Part shown: positions 19,489 to 56,304 of the stretch, piece after piece | Layout: every line of letters begins with the position of its first letter | Position numbering within the stretch: the first letter of the stretch is position 1 | NCBI RefSeq assembly: GCF_050003625.1 | Contig: NC_134400.1 | Span: 47,915,096-47,979,095, forward strand | Direction of reading: 5' to 3' | Source: Haematobia irritans | Taxonomy: Eukaryota; Arthropoda; Insecta; Diptera; Muscidae | Length of the DNA stretch: 64,000 nt | Notes under the pieces: model-generated | Database searches by the model: none | The model's input: the letters and a program-made list of their open reading frames with translations, nothing else | What the model was told of the DNA's origin: nothing | Program-made: the position numbers and the translations under genes

Positions 19489-19986
19489 TTTTTTTACTAA
19501 TATTGTGTTCCACCCTAGTGCATTAGCCGACTTAAATTTTGAGTCTATAGATTTTGTAGAAGTCTATCAAATTCTTCCAGATCGAGTGATATTTAAATGT
19601 ATGTATTTGGGACAAACCTTTATATATAGCCCCCAACACATTTGACGGATGTGATATGGTATCGAAAATTTAGATCTACAAAGTGGTGCAGGGTATAATA
19701 TAGTCGGCCCCACCCGACTTTAGACTTTCCTTACTGGTTTTTTACTAACATTGTGTTCCACCCTAGTGCATTAGCCGACTTAAATTTTGAGTTTATAGAT
19801 TTTGTAGAAGTGTATCAAATTCTCCCAGATCGAGTGATATTTCAATGTATGTATTTGGGACAAACCTTTATATATAGCCCCCAACACATTTGACGGATGT
19901 GATATGGTATCGAAAATTTAGATCTACAAAGTGGTGCAGGGTATAATATAGTCGGCCCCGCCCGACTTTAGACTTTCCTTACTGGT
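19489..19986 (+). repeat. family B far end, tandemly doubled
   Basis: Two ~248-bp head-to-tail copies of the terminal module: CTAGTGCATTAGCCGAC, CCCCCAACACATTTGACGG, GTGGTGCAGGGTATAATA and the GTCGG...CCGAC hairpin, each ending TTCCTTACTGG. Confidence 0.85.
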
Positions 19987-20369
19987 TTTTAAAAGCCTAT
20001 TGTTTTAACGATAAAATTTTTTTAAATGTCGATCTGTTAATTTTTTTCAATGCGAGGCCTTATTTGCCCAACTTGTATACTGGACTTTTGTTAGTGGGAA
20101 AAAGAAAGCAATAGACATTTTTAAAAAAATCGTGCGGTTGTAACCCCACATCACATGAAACAGGTCCCAAAAAAATGTTGGGCCCATTTTCATTATGGAA
20201 TTATAGGCTCCATTTTTATTATGTAGTAGAACCCCCCCCCCAAAAAAAAGAATGTCGACCCCAAAAATTATCCAAATTTCGTGTTATTGTATCCCATATA
20301 ATTATTGGGGTACATTTCCATTGGACAAAGTGGGGCTAATTTTCATGGGGCCCATATTCAAGCGCCAAA
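19987..20369. other. unassigned with GGGCCC-type repeat
   Basis: No gene seen. About 20130-20369 carries the TTGGGCCCATTTTCAT / CATGGGGCCCATATT repeat also found near 10.9 and 12.6 kb. Confidence 0.45.
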
Positions 20370-45099: not shown

Positions 45100-45686
45100 C
45101 AGTGCTGAGCTGCCAATTTTGCCGATTTATCGGCATTTTGACGATTTTTTACTCAAAAAATAGCAAATGCCGATTTTCCGATTTTTGCCCCAAAAATGAC
45201 TCGGTTCAAAAACTTGGACTAGAAGCAGTTCGTTTACACATTTAGAGCCAGCAAAAGAGAGAATACATTTGACAATAGTCAGATATAGAAATTGCTAGTC
45301 TTTGCTAGAGATTTCATACATCTAGGAGCTATACCTCATTTTACATCTACAGTATTAGTATCACGGTTTGAAGAAAATTTTATCAAAAATCTACCAAATT
45401 ACAAAAATATCTTGAAGTTGTTGATCAAATTTTTGTGGTTAGTATATATAAAAATTTTGTTTTATTAGAAAGAAATATTTTTTATGGAATTTATAGAAAA
45501 TTTCGGCAAATTTTTATTTCTATAAAAAAATTTTGTCAAAATTTTATTTCTTATTGTTGTTTTTTTGTTTTTTGATCTCAGCTTAAAGCCATGCATTGAC
45601 TAAACTACAAGTGTAGCTTAACCAACAGAGGAAAAGTATGCTTGTCAAATTTATTTGGGCAAAGCCCTATAGACTGCAAGATGGTT

Positions 45687-45731
45687 GGATGTACAGCTGT
45701 TTCGGAATTACCACATTCCTCATCAGCATCC
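45687..45731 (-). ncRNA. hammerhead ribozyme, type I, minimal helix III (unit 1)
   Basis: Minus strand: helix I GGATG pairs with CATCC; core CTGATGA; helix II GGAAT / ATTCC with a 6-base loop GTGGTA; core GAAA; helix III CAG-CTG of 3 bp with no loop; then the UA cleavage dinucleotide (GUA) before CATCC. All conserved core bases are present. Self-cleavage would fall after the A opposite 45692. A 3-bp palindromic helix III is typical of ribozymes active as dimers (CAGCTG pairing between two copies). Confidence 0.9.
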
Positions 45732-46122
45732 TCTACTTGCAGCAAAACTATCAACCAATTATCAGAATAAATTCGGGTAATTCACTCAACCCAACGTGAA
45801 CTACACTTGAACCTCCCGAAAAAGGGTTTAATAGTCGGCTACTGCCTAAACAAATTTGCCAGCATATCTCTTTTCCTTTGCCAAACTCAAATCATCGATT
45901 TGTATGTATTTGGCTGGGTTTGTTTTTGAGCGTGCTTCCTCTATCTTCATTCGTTTTGTTTGTTATTGTTGGCTTCTCTTCAATCGTTATTGTTGTTTTT
46001 TTGTTTTTTGATCTCAGCTTAAAGCCATGCATTGACTAAACTACAAGTGTAGCTTAACCAACAGAGGAAAAGTATGCTTGTCAAATTTATTTGGGCAAAG
46101 CCCTATAGACTGCAAGATGGTT

Positions 46123-46167
46123 GGATGTACAGCTGTTTCGGAATTACCACATTCCTCATCAGCATCC
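46123..46167 (-). ncRNA. hammerhead ribozyme, type I, minimal helix III (unit 2)
   Basis: Identical in sequence to the ribozyme 436 bp to the left. Cleavage at both sites of one minus-strand transcript would release a 436-nt RNA. Confidence 0.9.
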
Positions 46168-46454
46168 TCTACTTGCAGCAAAACTATCAACCAATTATCA
46201 GAATAAATTCGGGTAATTCACTCAACCCAACGTGAACTACACTTGAACCTCCCGAAAAAGGGTTTGATAGTCGGCTACTGCCTAAACAAATTTGCCAGCA
46301 TATCTCTTTTCCTTTGCCAAACTCAAATCATCGATTTGTATGTATTTGGCTGGGTTTGTTTTTGAGCGTGCTTCCTCTATCTTCATTCGTTTTGTTTGTT
46401 ATTGTTGGCTTCTCTTCAATCGTTATTGTTGTTTTTTTTTTTTTTTTTTTTTTT

Positions 46455-47230
46455 TTTCTATAGAAAATTTTGTCAAAATTTTACTTCTATAGAAAATTTT
46501 GTTAAAATTTTATTTCTGCAGAAAAAGTTGTCAAAATTTTATTTCTACAGAAAAAGTTGTCAAAATTTTATTTCTATAGAAAATTTCGACAAAATATTAT
46601 TTCTATAGAATTGTTTTTTTTAAATTTTATTTCTATAGCAAATTTTGTCAAAATTTTATTTTTATAGAAAATTTTGTCAAAATTTTATTTCTATAGAAAA
46701 TTTTGTTAAAATTTTATTTCTACAGAACAAGTTGTCCAAATTTTATTTCTACAGAAAAAGTTGTCAAAATTTTATTTCTATAGAAAATTTCGGCAAAATT
46801 TTATTTCTATAGATTTTTTTTCAAAATTTTATTTCTATAGCAAATTTTGTCAAAATTTTATTTTTATAGAAAATTTTGTCAAAATTTTATTTCTATAGAA
46901 AATTTTGTTAAAATTTTATTTCTACAGAACAAGTTGTCAAATCTTTATTTCTATAGAAAATTTCGGCAAAATTTTATTTCTATAGAAATTTTTTTCAAAA
47001 TTTTATTTCTATAGAGAATTTTGTAAAATTTTTAATTCTATAGAAAACTTTCTCAAGCCTTTATATCTGTAGAAAATTTTTGCACATTTTTATTTCTATA
47101 GAATATTCTTGCAAAAATTTATTTCTATAGAATATTTTTGGCAATTTTTTCTATAGTAAATTCTTGCAAAAATGTATTTCTATGAACATTTTTGCAAAAT
47201 TGTATTTGTAAGAAAATTTTTAAAAATTTT
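46455..47230. repeat. 29-bp minisatellite array, the longest in the window
   Basis: About 26 units, with higher-order repetition: a group containing ACAGAAAAAGTTGTC and AATTTCGGCAAAA variants occurs two to three times. Decays toward the right. Confidence 0.88.
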
Positions 47231-47761
47231 ATTTTTAATAAAATATTTGCAAACTGTCAAATTTTGGAAAATCGGGCAAATATATGTAAATATTAAAGAT
47301 CTTTATTTTTATTTTTAAATAAAAAAATTATTGCAATGGTGCATAGCATTGCATAAAAATGTTATTTTTTTATTTTAATTTTTATACAAGACTGAATTCA
47401 TTATGATTATTTTGTTAAAATGCATAGTTGTGTTAATTTTCTGTTCTTTATATGAAATAAATATTTTTGTTTTTAACTAAAAAATTAGTTTGGTTTTAAT
47501 ATTATTAATATTGCAGATTTTTTGCCGATTTTTAAAATGGAAGTGACGATTATGGCGATTTTTTCGGAAAAAAGTGACGATTATTCTTGAAATTTTATTG
47601 GCAGCCCTGGCCGCTAGTGAAAAATTGAGTGAAGTAGTTTTTGGAAAAAAGTGGAGTAGATTGAATAAAATTGAAGTAGCATACATTTTTGAAAACAAAA
47701 CAATAGCGTCGGTGAGCGTATTCCTTTGCTAAAGATATTAAAGAATTTATAATTAATACTA

Positions 47762-48693
47762 AAGGGTGATTCTTTTGAGGTTAGGATTTTCATGCATTAG
47801 TATTTGACAGATCACGTGGGATTTCAGACATGGTGTCAAAGAGAAAGATGCTCAGTATGCTTTGACATTTCATCATGAATAGACGAACGATCTGCCACAA
47901 CGTCGAATTTTCAGTGAATGGGCCCTAGAAAAGTTGGCAGAAAATCCGCTTTTTTATCGACAAATTTTGTTCAGCGATGAGGCTCATTTCTGGTTGAATG
48001 GCTACGTAAATAAGCAAAATTGCCGCATTTGGAGTGAAGAGCAACCAGAAGCCGTTCAAGAACTGCCCATGCATCCCGAAAAATGCACTGTTTGGTGTGG
48101 TTTGTACGCTGGTGGAATCATTGGACCGTATTTTTTCAAAGATGCTGTTGGACGCAACGTTACGGTGAATGGCGATCGCTATCGTTCGATGCTAACAAAC
48201 TTTTTGTTGCCAAAAATGGAAGAACTGAACTTGGTTGACATGTGGTTTCAACAAGATGGCGCTACATGCCACACAGCTCGCGATTCTATGGCCATTTTGA
48301 GGGAAAACTTCGGAGAACAATTCATCTCAAGAAATGGACCGGTAAGTTGGCCACCAAGATCATGCGATTTGACGCCTTTAGACTATTTTTTGTGGGGCTA
48401 CGTCAAGTCTAAAGTCTACAGAAATAAGCCAGCAACTATTCCAGCTTTGGAAGACAACATTTCCGAAGAAATTCGGGCTATTCCGGCCGAAATGCTCGAA
48501 AAAGTTGCCCAAAATTGGACTTTCCGAATGGACCACCTAAGACGCAGCCGCGGTCAACATTTAAATTAAATTATCTTCAAAAAGTAAATGTCATGGACCA
48601 ATCTAACGTTTCAAATAAAGAACCGATGAGATTTTGCAAATTTTATGCGTTTTTTTTTTTTAAAAGTTATCAAGCTCTTAACAAATCACCCTT
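47762..48693 (+). mobile_element. DD41D mariner-like element (rosa-type), internally deleted, copy 1
   Basis: 932 bp bounded by AAGGGTGATT and AATCACCCTT, with TA on both sides (47760-47761 and 48694-48695). The interior carries the C-terminal two-thirds of a transposase. The sequence for the N-terminal DNA-binding domain is deleted. Confidence 0.9.
47934..48569 (+). pseudogene. mariner-like DD41D transposase, catalytic domain only, frame disconnected from ATG
   Basis: DDE transposase catalytic domain: first D in FSDEAHFW, second in WFQQDGATCH, third in CDLTPLDYFLWG, with 41 residues between the second and third, i.e. DD41D. The C-terminus RMDHLRRSRGQHL is intact. An ATG (47875) remains from the original start but a deletion joins it out of frame: the preserved catalytic frame is closed by a TAG nine bases before NDLPQRRIF. 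The helix-turn-helix DNA-binding domain is missing, so no functional transposase. The first residue of the listed span is an internal leucine codon, not a start. Confidence 0.88.
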
Positions 48694-52433: not shown

Positions 52434-53367
52434 AAGGGTGATTTGTTAAGAGCTTGATAACTTTTTAAAAAAAAAAAACGCATAAAATTTGCAAAATCTC
52501 ATCGGTTCTTTATTTGAAACGTTAGATTGGTCCATGACATTTACTTTTTGAAGATAATTTCATTTAAATGTTGACCGCGGCTGCGTCTTAGGTGGTCCAT
52601 TCGGAAAGTCCAATTTTGGGCAACTTTTTCGAGCATTTCGGCCGGAATTGCCCGAATTTCTTCGGAAATGTTGTCTTCCAAAGCTTGAATAGTTGCTGGC
52701 TTATTTCTGTAGACTTTAGACTTGACGTAGCCCCACAAAAAATAGTCTAAAGGCGTCAAATCGCATGATCTTGGTGGCCAACTTACCGGTCCATTTCTTG
52801 AGATGAATTGTTCTCCGAAGTTTTCCCTCAAAATGGCCATAGAATCGCGAGCTGTGTGGCATGTAGCGCCATCTTGTTGAAACCACATGTCAACCAAGTT
52901 CAGTTCTTCCATTTTTGGCAACAAAAAGTTTGTTAGCATCGAACGATAGCGATCGCCATTCACCGTAACGTTGCGTCCAACAGCATCTTTGAAAAAATAC
53001 GGTCCAATGATTCCACCAGCGTACAAACCACACCAAACAGTGCATTTTTCGGGATGCATGGGCAGTTCTTGAACGGCTTCTGGTTGCTCTTCACTCCAAA
53101 TGCGGCAATTTTGCTTATTTACGTAGCCATTCAACCAGAAATGAGCCTCATCGCTGAACAAAATTTGTCGATAAAAAAGCGGATTTTCTGCCAACTTTTC
53201 TAGGGCCCATTCACTGAAAATTCGACGTTGTGGCTCGTTAGTAAGTCTATTCATGATGAAATGTCAAAGCATACTGAGCATCTTTCTCTTTGACACCATG
53301 TCTGAAATCCCACGTGATCTGTCAAATACTAATGCATGAAAATCCTAACCTCAAAAGAATCACCCTT
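52434..53367 (-). mobile_element. DD41D mariner-like element (rosa-type), internally deleted, copy 2
   Basis: 934 bp, reverse orientation, same AAGGGTGATT / AATCACCCTT termini, TA on both sides. The target, CAACTACTTGTGCC, is intact in the family A copy at 15401, so the TA duplication is demonstrated. Confidence 0.93.
52541..53254 (-). pseudogene. mariner-like DD41D transposase with in-frame deletion of the DNA-binding domain
   Basis: 237-residue open frame from a genuine ATG. Residues 1-7 (MNRLTNE) are the start of the full-length protein, joined directly to PQRRIFSEW of the catalytic part. Catalytic acids: D35 (FSDEAH), D128 (QQDGA) and D170 (TPLDYF), 41 residues between the last two. The C-terminus is complete (GQHLNEIIFKK). 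The helix-turn-helix domains are absent, so it could not recognise the ends, but a catalytic-domain protein could in principle be made if transcribed. Very similar to copy 1 over the shared part, but with a different deletion junction. Confidence 0.9.
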
Positions 53368-54271: not shown

Positions 54272-56044
54272 TTAATAAGAACCAAGTTTATGAATCGAAT
54301 GCATAAACACCAAATTATCTATTGTATTGGGCCCTAATCTATTTCTTTTCTCAGTTATAATATTACCGGCCAATGAAAATGAACGCTCCGCTGCAGCACT
54401 ACTAGCAGGTATCGAATGAACTTGTACGGCAAACTTCGACAATCGTGGATATTGGCTTGCTTTGTTTCTCCACCAGCCTATTAAATCAAATTCATCGATA
54501 AGCGGCACTCTCTCAAAGGTGTATCTATCTACTTCTTGTTCGAGGGTCTCGTTCGTCGGTACATAAGCTTGTATTAAATCAGGGAAAAAGAAACTGGTTA
54601 CATTCTTGTGTTTATTACTAGAACTCGGCACTTCGGTCTTAATTTGTGATGCACTTGTTGATGATGAAAAAGTCGGACTTTCTGCTATTGCCGAATTTTC
54701 CATAGCATTCACACAAAAATTCTTTATTTCAACAATATTCGGTTGATCAGAATTCACTGCGGGTGGGTAGAGAAATAAAGCAACTTTATGCCATATTGAT
54801 AAATGCTGTACCCAATTTTTGTCAATTTCTTTTAAAATATTTTCTTTCAACTCAGCAATTGCTATCATATCTTCAATGCCTGCTTCGCAGATTAGTTTGA
54901 TTTTATTTATCGAACAAGGATGGAGATTTGCTTAATTGCAACTGTTTAAATATGGTTTCAAAGTCTCCACAAATATTGACAAGGATTTTAAGTGTTTCTA
55001 TGTTTATGTCCGATAATCTAACAGATGCACCTTTTTCTTCCAGCAAACCGTTTATTTCCTCCCAATTATCAACTATCGACTTAAACATTGTGTAATTAGA
55101 ATTCCACCTTGTGGGGCACTCACTTTTCAGAGATGTTGGTAGTCTAGTCTGGATATTGCTTTTTTGAAGAACTTAACAAGATTTTTGCATGCATTAATCA
55201 TTGGGGAGAGTTCTTCTGTAGATTCAAAAGCCTTTTCTAAAGCGTTGGATAACAAATGGCTACTACAATTAAGACGAATATTATTTTCCAAAGCTTTTTT
55301 TATGTTGGCACCTCTGTCCGTAACAAACTTTATGGGCTTTATATTCTGCACACCAAATGTTTCAAATACATGTTTTAGTTTTCTTAATATATTCTCTCCT
55401 GTGGATCTCTCGTAATCCATGGATTTCATGCCTAAGACCAAGTCGTTAAGCTTGCCATCATTTTCATAATGGAATGTCACGCCCAAGAAGTTACGTCTTA
55501 TATAATTATCAGTCCACATATCTATTGTGGCCGACGCACTTCCACTATTAACTTTTTCAATAATTATTGCTTTATATTTCAGTCTGGTTTCTTGCGCTAA
55601 ACCTTCCAATGAACGTGATAATGTTGTAGCATTTGGTATTAAATCTGGGACGTCGATTTGATCACCATGGGCTGCACCAATTTTTATAAAAAAATGAGCC
55701 AGTTTTTGAAACCCCGAACCGCTTACAGCTGAAAATGGACGGCAGTCCTCTATTGCCCACTCAGTGCATGCTTTAGCAGCTTCCTGTTTTTCATGTGCGG
55801 TTAAGACTTTGATTCTTGATTCTTTTAATTTTGAACAGCACTTATGCCGATTTAAATTTGATGATTGGTTACCTTTACATTTTAGTACATTTTGGCAGCT
55901 ACGGCAGTACACAAAATCTTCCAATGTTGTACCATCTTCCTTCTGAATTAATGCAAATATATCCCATATCAAGCTCCGGCCTTTGCGACGTTGTGATATG
56001 GTGTAAACACCATCCAAAATTTTGTCTTTTACATAAAATGACAT
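54272..56044 (-). pseudogene. Hermes-like hAT transposase, nearly complete, two lesions
   Basis: Starts MSFYVKDKILDG at 56044. A BED-type zinc finger covers about residues 45-70 (C47, C50, H67, C69), then RPFSAVSGSGF. Catalytic acids: D175 in SATIDMWTDNY and D243 in FVTDRGAN; NCSSHLLSNAL follows. The third acid is the E of SSAAAERSFSLAGN near 54,390. ECPTRWNS, with the conserved W, is read in a shifted frame. Lesion 1: loss of one A in an A-run (T-run 55160-55165) shifts the frame after FKKAISR. Lesion 2: a small deletion after SPSLF near 54,905-54,920. Total retained is about 565-590 residues against about 612 for Hermes. All catalytic residues survive, suggesting a recent death. Terminal repeats were not confirmed. 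Confidence 0.9.
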
Positions 56045-56304
56045 TTTGCGTTTTTACAGAAGCTAGCTTCTCCAACGAAGGATCACGCACAACTAAATAC
56101 CTAAAGAGCTTTCATCAATAGTGAAACGAATACCATAGTTTGCAACAAAACAACATACTTATGCACTGAAATAATTCCGTTAGTTCTGTGGTGTTCATGT
56201 TCCCAGCGGCGAAAATCGGGAGCACTTACAATTAAAACATTCCCGTAGCCCTTATTTTAGACTCTATACTCATACGATCAACAAAATTTACAATTATTAA
56301 ACAA
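56045..56304. other. 5' flank of the hAT transposase
   Basis: Presumed 5' region of the Hermes-like element. Its reverse complement contains CAGAACTAACGG...CAGTGCATAAGTATG, a possible but unproven terminus (56160-56200). Confidence 0.35.

Follow-up and report, generated by a model that had tools for sequence, protein, structure and literature searches.

Retrozymes of the metazoan non-LTR type are described, in the accessible parts of PMC7229834 and PMC7761336, as short non-coding tandem repeats that carry type I hammerhead ribozymes and are expressed as circles, and the accessible text of PMC7229834 lists insects among the carriers without detail. The same text reports that the newt and axolotl hammerhead HHR_Amex1 has a one-pair helix III with a palindromic tetraloop and is weak alone and more efficient as a dimer. 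Hammerheads are also found in Penelope-like elements (PLEs), where the accessible sections of PMC6155905 and PMC7761336 describe them as minimal, without helix III or tertiary loops. In the Anolis PLE PAc, which has a type I hammerhead and tandem copies, AT-rich DNA is cut and both strands are extended with no difference in start site between them, and two adjacent internal reverse transcriptase (RT) start sites in an AC-rich stem loop explain a 30-40 bp tail (PMC11167929). The insect repeat pDo500 of the Dolichopoda cave cricket is a tandem repeat with a hammerhead, like the fly unit described below; unlike that unit, it is reported in the accessible part of PMC2837043 as satellite DNA with a hairpin stem III, and that part describes no anatomy of insertions. 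Type III hammerheads are reported from dipterans, the housefly among them, in the accessible part of PMC7936874, as against type I in the fly unit. Among the matches listed, in a searched literature thin in subscription papers, we found no dipteran retrozyme of type I described, and no paper in that literature brought "hammerhead ribozyme" and "Haematobia" together.

We analysed a 64,000-nucleotide stretch of the Haematobia irritans genome (NC_134400.1, positions 47,915,096 to 47,979,095), hereafter the window, in which a candidate retrozyme had been proposed (the original prediction). The locus probably represents one insertion of a non-autonomous, non-coding hammerhead retroelement, a retrozyme of the metazoan non-LTR type, inserted by the cycle proposed below. 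Its features are as follows.

45551-45986, minus strand: candidate retrozyme unit 1 (the 3' unit in the RNA sense), 436 bp; TRF and self-comparison, at least 168 genomic pieces.
45987-46422, minus strand: candidate retrozyme unit 2, 436 bp, 435/436 identical to unit 1; self-comparison.
46423-46457, minus strand: 16 bases from the start of another copy, merging into an A26 tract, the RNA-sense 5' end of the insert; sequence.
45547-45551, no strand: left copy of a 4-5 bp duplication, TTTC(T); flank comparison, maybe chance.
46455-46459, no strand: right copy of the same 4-5 bp duplication, TTTC(T); flank comparison, maybe chance.
45674-45742, minus strand: extended type I hammerhead of unit 1; structural scan and folding, the exact 69 nt kept in 82/90 genomic units.
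46110-46178, minus strand: extended type I hammerhead of unit 2; structural scan and folding.
Between 45692 and 45691, minus strand: predicted cleavage site GUA^CAUCC of unit 1; motif position only.
Between 46128 and 46127, minus strand: predicted cleavage site of unit 2; motif position only.
45551-45575, minus strand: A/C-rich tract with start site A, the sense 3' end of the window insert and a large single-stranded loop in the predicted circle; 30/56 ends, fold.
45942-45960 (second copy 46378-46396), minus strand: A/C-rich tract with start site B, located 3' of A by about 41 nt in the RNA sense; 25/56 ends.
46450-47253 (TRF bounds), also left of the insert up to 45550, no strand: 29-bp AT-rich minisatellite, the target; TRF and joined flanks.

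TRF and self-comparison of the window bore out the two near-identical head-to-tail units of the original prediction, their sole base difference being A at 45830 and G at 46266. The right edge of the insert holds 16 bases of a third copy and then a run of 26 T. At this 5' junction (A26 in the RNA sense, 46432-46457) the unit's own run is A7, and we read the longer tract as slippage or untemplated addition as reverse transcription ends. The flanking TTTC(T) duplication may be chance, because single-orientation inserts as a group showed no duplication signal above control. The unit has, as had been claimed, no substantial open frame, the longest open run read round the circle being 58 aa on the minus and 79 aa on the plus strand, and protein searches with two frames of the unit found no homologue. 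A look for Pol III boxes gave an A-box-like word and T runs and no B box, and ARAGORN found no tRNA genes in the window. Like the coral, mussel and axolotl retrozymes in the accessible part of Cervera and de la Pena 2020 (PMC7229834), the fly unit combines a GC content below 50% (38%), a self-paired RNA and a type I hammerhead; its length of 436 nt compares with about 170-400 nt given there for metazoan retrozymes.

Other mobile or repeated sequences were observed in the window. A second tandem dimer, at 19490-19990, has a 248-bp unit with 6 differences between its copies and gave no hammerhead in the structural scan. Tc/mariner-like transposase fragments at 47883-48569 (plus) and 52541-53263 (minus) are near-identical by eye, and the latter matches a Haematobia irritans protein with 100% identity across 96% of its length. 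At 54272-56053 (minus) lie pieces of a hAT transposase, the N-terminal one matching the Hermes transposase (PDB 8edg) and the C-terminal one containing a hAT dimerisation domain.

On the minus strand each unit contains the motif GGATG-CTGATGA-GGAAT-gtggta-ATTCC-GAAA-C-AGCT-G-TA^CATCC, at 45731-45687 and 46167-46123. Scanning both strands of the window with a structural descriptor built from general hammerhead rules returned two matches only, one per 436-bp unit, in agreement with the predicted hammerhead in each. Both units have the type I arrangement under these core rules (core CUGANGA...GAAA...UH, helices I-III, open at helix I). Among 60 random 64-kb sequences there were 0 comparable motifs, and 60 Mb of random sequence from an order-2 model held 0 that were equally good, as against 5 matches to a looser descriptor; the hammerhead motif is beyond chance. 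A covariance search with the Rfam hammerhead models, which had been proposed as a check, went the other way: under three settings it gave no match at the gathering threshold or at E<=10, helix III having only two pairs, and this miss counts against the hammerhead assignment.

The palindromic 3-bp helix III (CAG/CTG) of the original prediction had to be replaced, since a loopless hairpin is impossible. Helix III instead consists of A15.1-U16.1 and one C-G pair (2 bp) capped by an AGCU loop or, alternatively, the palindrome can pair two copies in an 8-bp ACAGCUGU duplex. We also found a distal helix I of 7 bp (CTGCAAG/CTTGCAG) that had been overlooked, lying beyond an internal loop (TAGA / AACCAT), so that the extended hammerhead comprises distal helix I, internal loop, a 5-bp helix I, core, helix II and the AGCU-capped helix III. 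An extended helix I with an internal loop is the layout of canonical type I hammerheads. Cleavage at the two predicted sites would, to judge from the sequence, release a 436-nt RNA running from 46127 to 45692. The very short helix III with its palindromic AGCU cap resembles HHR_Amex1 as described in the accessible text of PMC7229834, which differs in its vertebrate host and in its seemingly unrelated unit. The fly cleavage triplet is GUA, and GUC occurs in a diverged fly relative.

The exact 45-nt motif was retained in 84/90 genomic units. Two stretches, L044:1663-1925 and L054:2272-2546, appear to be older, diverged relatives of the unit at about 85-90% identity. The first (84.8% identical) has an intact-looking hammerhead that retains core, helix II and GAAAC, with GTC as its cleavage triplet; the second is decayed, with a damaged core (GATA) and a mismatched helix I in L054:2322-2546 (90%). 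Beside the latter lies a weak inverted piece (61 bases, 77% identical) with an outer end that coincides with neither A nor B. A hammerhead-like pattern run against IMG/VR and GTDB contigs gave 1 and 5 matches, which were rejected since the helices were absent by eye, and two further hammerhead patterns gave 0 matches in IMG/VR.

Folding gave a mixed picture. For the lone motif a non-catalytic hairpin was favoured (-22.1 vs -16.8/-17.1 kcal/mol), and this modelled preference counts against our best reading. When two motif copies were folded without constraint, the result was exactly the double hammerhead with the 8-bp ACAGCUGU helix III (-49.5); its energy gap is not evidence, because 255/300 shuffles reach it. 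The minimum fold of the full insert has two non-catalytic hairpins, the double hammerhead lying 3.3 kcal/mol above it. Folded as a 436-nt circle, the minus strand gave z -5.64 and the plus strand z -2.57, and the minus circle is highly self-paired (61%), as described for retrozymes. This fold z is not distinctive within the window: the unit reached z -5.2 when folded as a linear molecule against 20 shuffles, and 15/118 window segments, several of them overlapping tandem arrays, were more extreme. The 45830/46266 difference changes a G-U pair to a G-C pair in the fold, and the A-rich tract AAAAAACAAAAAAACAACAAUAA forms a single-stranded loop in the predicted structure.

The proposed genome search for further copies recovered at least 168 matching pieces in the fly's own 1.17-Gb genome, most of them nearly identical. 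These pieces lie on five large contigs and come from the best 40 of 976 candidates, a sample that favours young, long copies. All clusters among the matches listed were taken, giving 37 loci with 39 insertions; the two L055 inserts are seemingly one duplicated event. BLAST pieces of <22 nt or <=93% identity were left out, which drops the diverged copies in L044 and L054, and unit comparisons used only units >=400 nt and >97% identical (n=90). Inserts, delimited by likeness to the unit, measured 1.2-8.4 units with both arms summed and with gaps between pieces of up to about 15 nt. They consist of tandem copies of a short, non-coding repeat that carries a type I hammerhead, and they are dispersed over 39 sites on five contigs. 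A target site duplication of >4 bp, when one is present, belongs to the description of metazoan non-LTR retrozymes; here a duplication signal was confined to the 17 inverted inserts described below.

To judge whether the inserts hold anything besides the unit, we relied on their flanks. The 29-bp minisatellite adjoins both edges in 32/39 inserts, and both edges of L039 adjoin one same other tandem repeat. Because the same tandem repeat bounds both sides, 33/39 inserts hold unit sequence only, which agrees with the view that the element is retrozyme-like and not part of a long unrelated transposon. The unit-only count covers these 33; the other six inserts are L012, L019, L022, L047, L048 and the first of L049. 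In two of the six, L022 and L049 (right flank of insert 715-1257), the 5' side holds a common repeat that is about 170 bp long and 91% identical between them, and the unit 5' ends differ; the repeat is either a target that both inserts share or a second template that became joined.

Insertion into the 29-bp minisatellite was confirmed for the window, where the joined flanks, with one 4-base duplicate removed, match the minisatellite consensus at 29/29 positions. Both flanks were at least 75% identical to the minisatellite in 32/39 inserts, compared with 16/400 random positions in this window, from which alone the background rate was taken; nine 29-bp arrays make up 4.9% of the window. The minisatellite unit contains the palindromes TTTTCTATAGAAAA and CAAAATTTTG.

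Insert ends fell into a fixed and a scattered class. In the 39 insertions, 55/56 sense 3' ends lay at one of two sites, 30 of them at A (418-436 in the unit) and 25 at B (27-45), classes that were defined after inspecting the data; the exception is L050. The 5' ends were scattered, all 56 lying between unit positions 58 and 414. The interval 415-57, around both start sites, held 0/56 5' ends, as if the enzyme does not stop there, and delimiting by BLAST may contribute to this gap. At the cleavage site (295-296, within 1 nt) we found 2/56 5' ends where 0.39 were expected (P 0.06), an excess that is not significant among 56 ends. For one of these two, L047, CAT is common to insert and target, and its position at the cleavage site may reflect microhomology.

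Variants were shared within arrays. Of the 90 units, 74 belong to the 23 inserts that contain at least two, partial units being left out. Position 375 (A or T) was concordant in 23/23 of these multi-unit inserts, a result reached in 0/100000 shuffles (best 16). Private variants were array-wide in six inserts, in three of them spanning both inverted arms: T230C in 5/5 full units of L032, C413G in 6/6 full units of both arms of L041, C359A in 3/3 full units of L046, T384A in 2/2 full units of L030, and G91A and A122T in both arms of L053 and L054. Other variants were mostly confined to single units; position 10 varies within one array, and position 157 differs within the window's own unit pair. 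Units differed on average by 0.62 within inserts and by 1.69 between inserts. The shared variants are most simply explained if a single circular RNA was copied repeatedly, starting from both DNA ends where the insert is inverted. Homogeneous arrays could also stem from gene conversion or from a linear multimeric transcript whose source array was itself homogeneous.

Head-to-head arrangement, with 3' ends outward ("-+"), was found in 17/39 inserts, and the tail-to-tail arrangement ("+-") in 0. One A end was paired with one B end in 16/17 of the inverted inserts, L040 having two A ends; from the end frequencies of single inserts (12 A, 9 B, 1 other, n=22) the chance of such pairing is about 1e-4. 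The outer ends of inverted inserts have words of 6-17 bp in common, and as many as six of the letters in such a word possibly lie within the element. These words averaged 11.8, compared with 7.7 in mismatched flank pairs (0/2000 permutations), and with flank letters alone the means were 8.1 vs 6.3. The 22 single-orientation inserts gave no duplication signal (mean 6.7 vs 6.3 in the control, 229/2000 permutations). We infer a staggered break with both 3' ends priming behind the inverted inserts; single-orientation inserts may be repaired by another route.

On sequence grounds these observations support the earlier retrozyme interpretation, and they suggest a cycle. Read-through transcription of the tandem array on the minus strand would be followed by pairing of adjacent hammerheads via ACAGCUGU and cutting 5' of CAUCC, freeing a 436-nt RNA, as their anatomy suggests, and a host ligase would circularise this RNA, by analogy with published retrozymes. 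An endonuclease would cut AT-rich DNA, preferably the 29-bp minisatellite, consistent with the observed target bias, and for double-ended inserts the cut would be staggered, consistent with the observed duplication signal. The 3' DNA ends would prime reverse transcription at A or B within an A/C-rich single-stranded region, in keeping with the fixed 3' ends that we observed. The enzyme would then go round the presumed circle one to several times with scattered stops, which fits the observed 5' scatter and the array-wide private variants, the latter pointing to a circle only indirectly. Often both DNA ends would prime, one at A and one at B, presumably on the same circle, producing head-to-head arrays. 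We lean, if slightly, towards the specific reading that one ribozyme-made RNA circle is copied in repeated turns into the minisatellite, with the two 3' ends of a single staggered break priming simultaneously at differing starts. The differing A/B starts in 16/17 look as if they came from two halves of a dimeric enzyme. If true, target-primed reverse transcription would here take a double-ended, rolling-circle form.

As to the enzyme, we stop just short of favouring the view that the retrozyme is moved by PLE-type machinery. The fly inserts resemble PAc in their two start sites about 41 nt apart, a likeness in working and not in membership, and in the A/C-rich character of those sites, the AT-rich target and the use of both DNA ends; the accessible text of PMC7229834 calls PLEs a strong candidate for moving metazoan retrozymes. 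PAc itself codes for RT and GIY-YIG, and its start site is alike on both strands, in contrast to the pairing of different sites in 16/17 double-ended fly inserts (PMC11167929). Pfam PF01541 recognises only SLX1 in the fly genome, and divergent PLE nucleases may escape this model.

Possibly a LINE moves the retrozyme, using target-primed reverse transcription and twin priming, a view that we hold tentatively. The common words of 6-17 bp at the ends of inverted inserts, above control, the A-rich priming tract in the unit and an RVT_1 fragment in the window, read as LINE-type, all fit it. L1 twin priming likewise yields inversions, which counts for this view. In twin priming, however, the second start site varies, unlike the use of A on one side and B on the other in 16/17 inverted inserts.

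It is very unlikely that the unit is the pseudo-LTR of an autonomous PLE and the inserts its extreme truncations. Type I hammerheads, tandem copies, AT-rich targets and extension of both strands are all known from PLEs (PMC11167929). PLEs also have two start sites in an AC-rich stem loop, separated by a 30-40 bp tail that is optional, and sites A and B are strikingly similar to these. Against this, 33/39 inserts have the same tandem repeat on either side and contain no other sequence than the unit, and the unit that they hold has no long open frame, let alone one with RT plus GIY-YIG. The sole GIY-YIG match to PF01541 in the 1.17-Gb genome (25/25 candidates scored) is the SLX1 locus, identified by its SLX1_C domain and by PDB SLX1 matches. 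The hammerhead predicted here, with extended helix I and internal loop, would also differ from PLE hammerheads, reported as minimal in the accessible literature. An ordinary satellite whose copies spread through unequal crossing over or as DNA circles, the hammerhead being passive, is most unlikely: tandem, homogeneous arrays and 22 single-orientation inserts without a duplication signal speak for it, and fixed 3' ends, scattered 5' ends, dispersed inserts, the duplication signal in inverted inserts and head-to-head arms with fixed outer ends speak against it.

Returning to the retrozyme that we regard as the best explanation, the minisatellite bias, two fixed start sites, head-to-head inserts and array-wide variants set the fly family apart from the retrozymes described in the accessible part of PMC7229834. 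How animal retrozymes return to DNA, and by which enzyme, is an open question in PMC7229834 and PMC7761336, as far as their accessible text goes. The young, abundant family of Haematobia irritans records steps of this process: fixed starts, variable stops, apparently one template per insertion, the use of both ends and a preferred target. Repeated reverse transcription of a circle thereby moves from a hypothesis to something testable in a fly.
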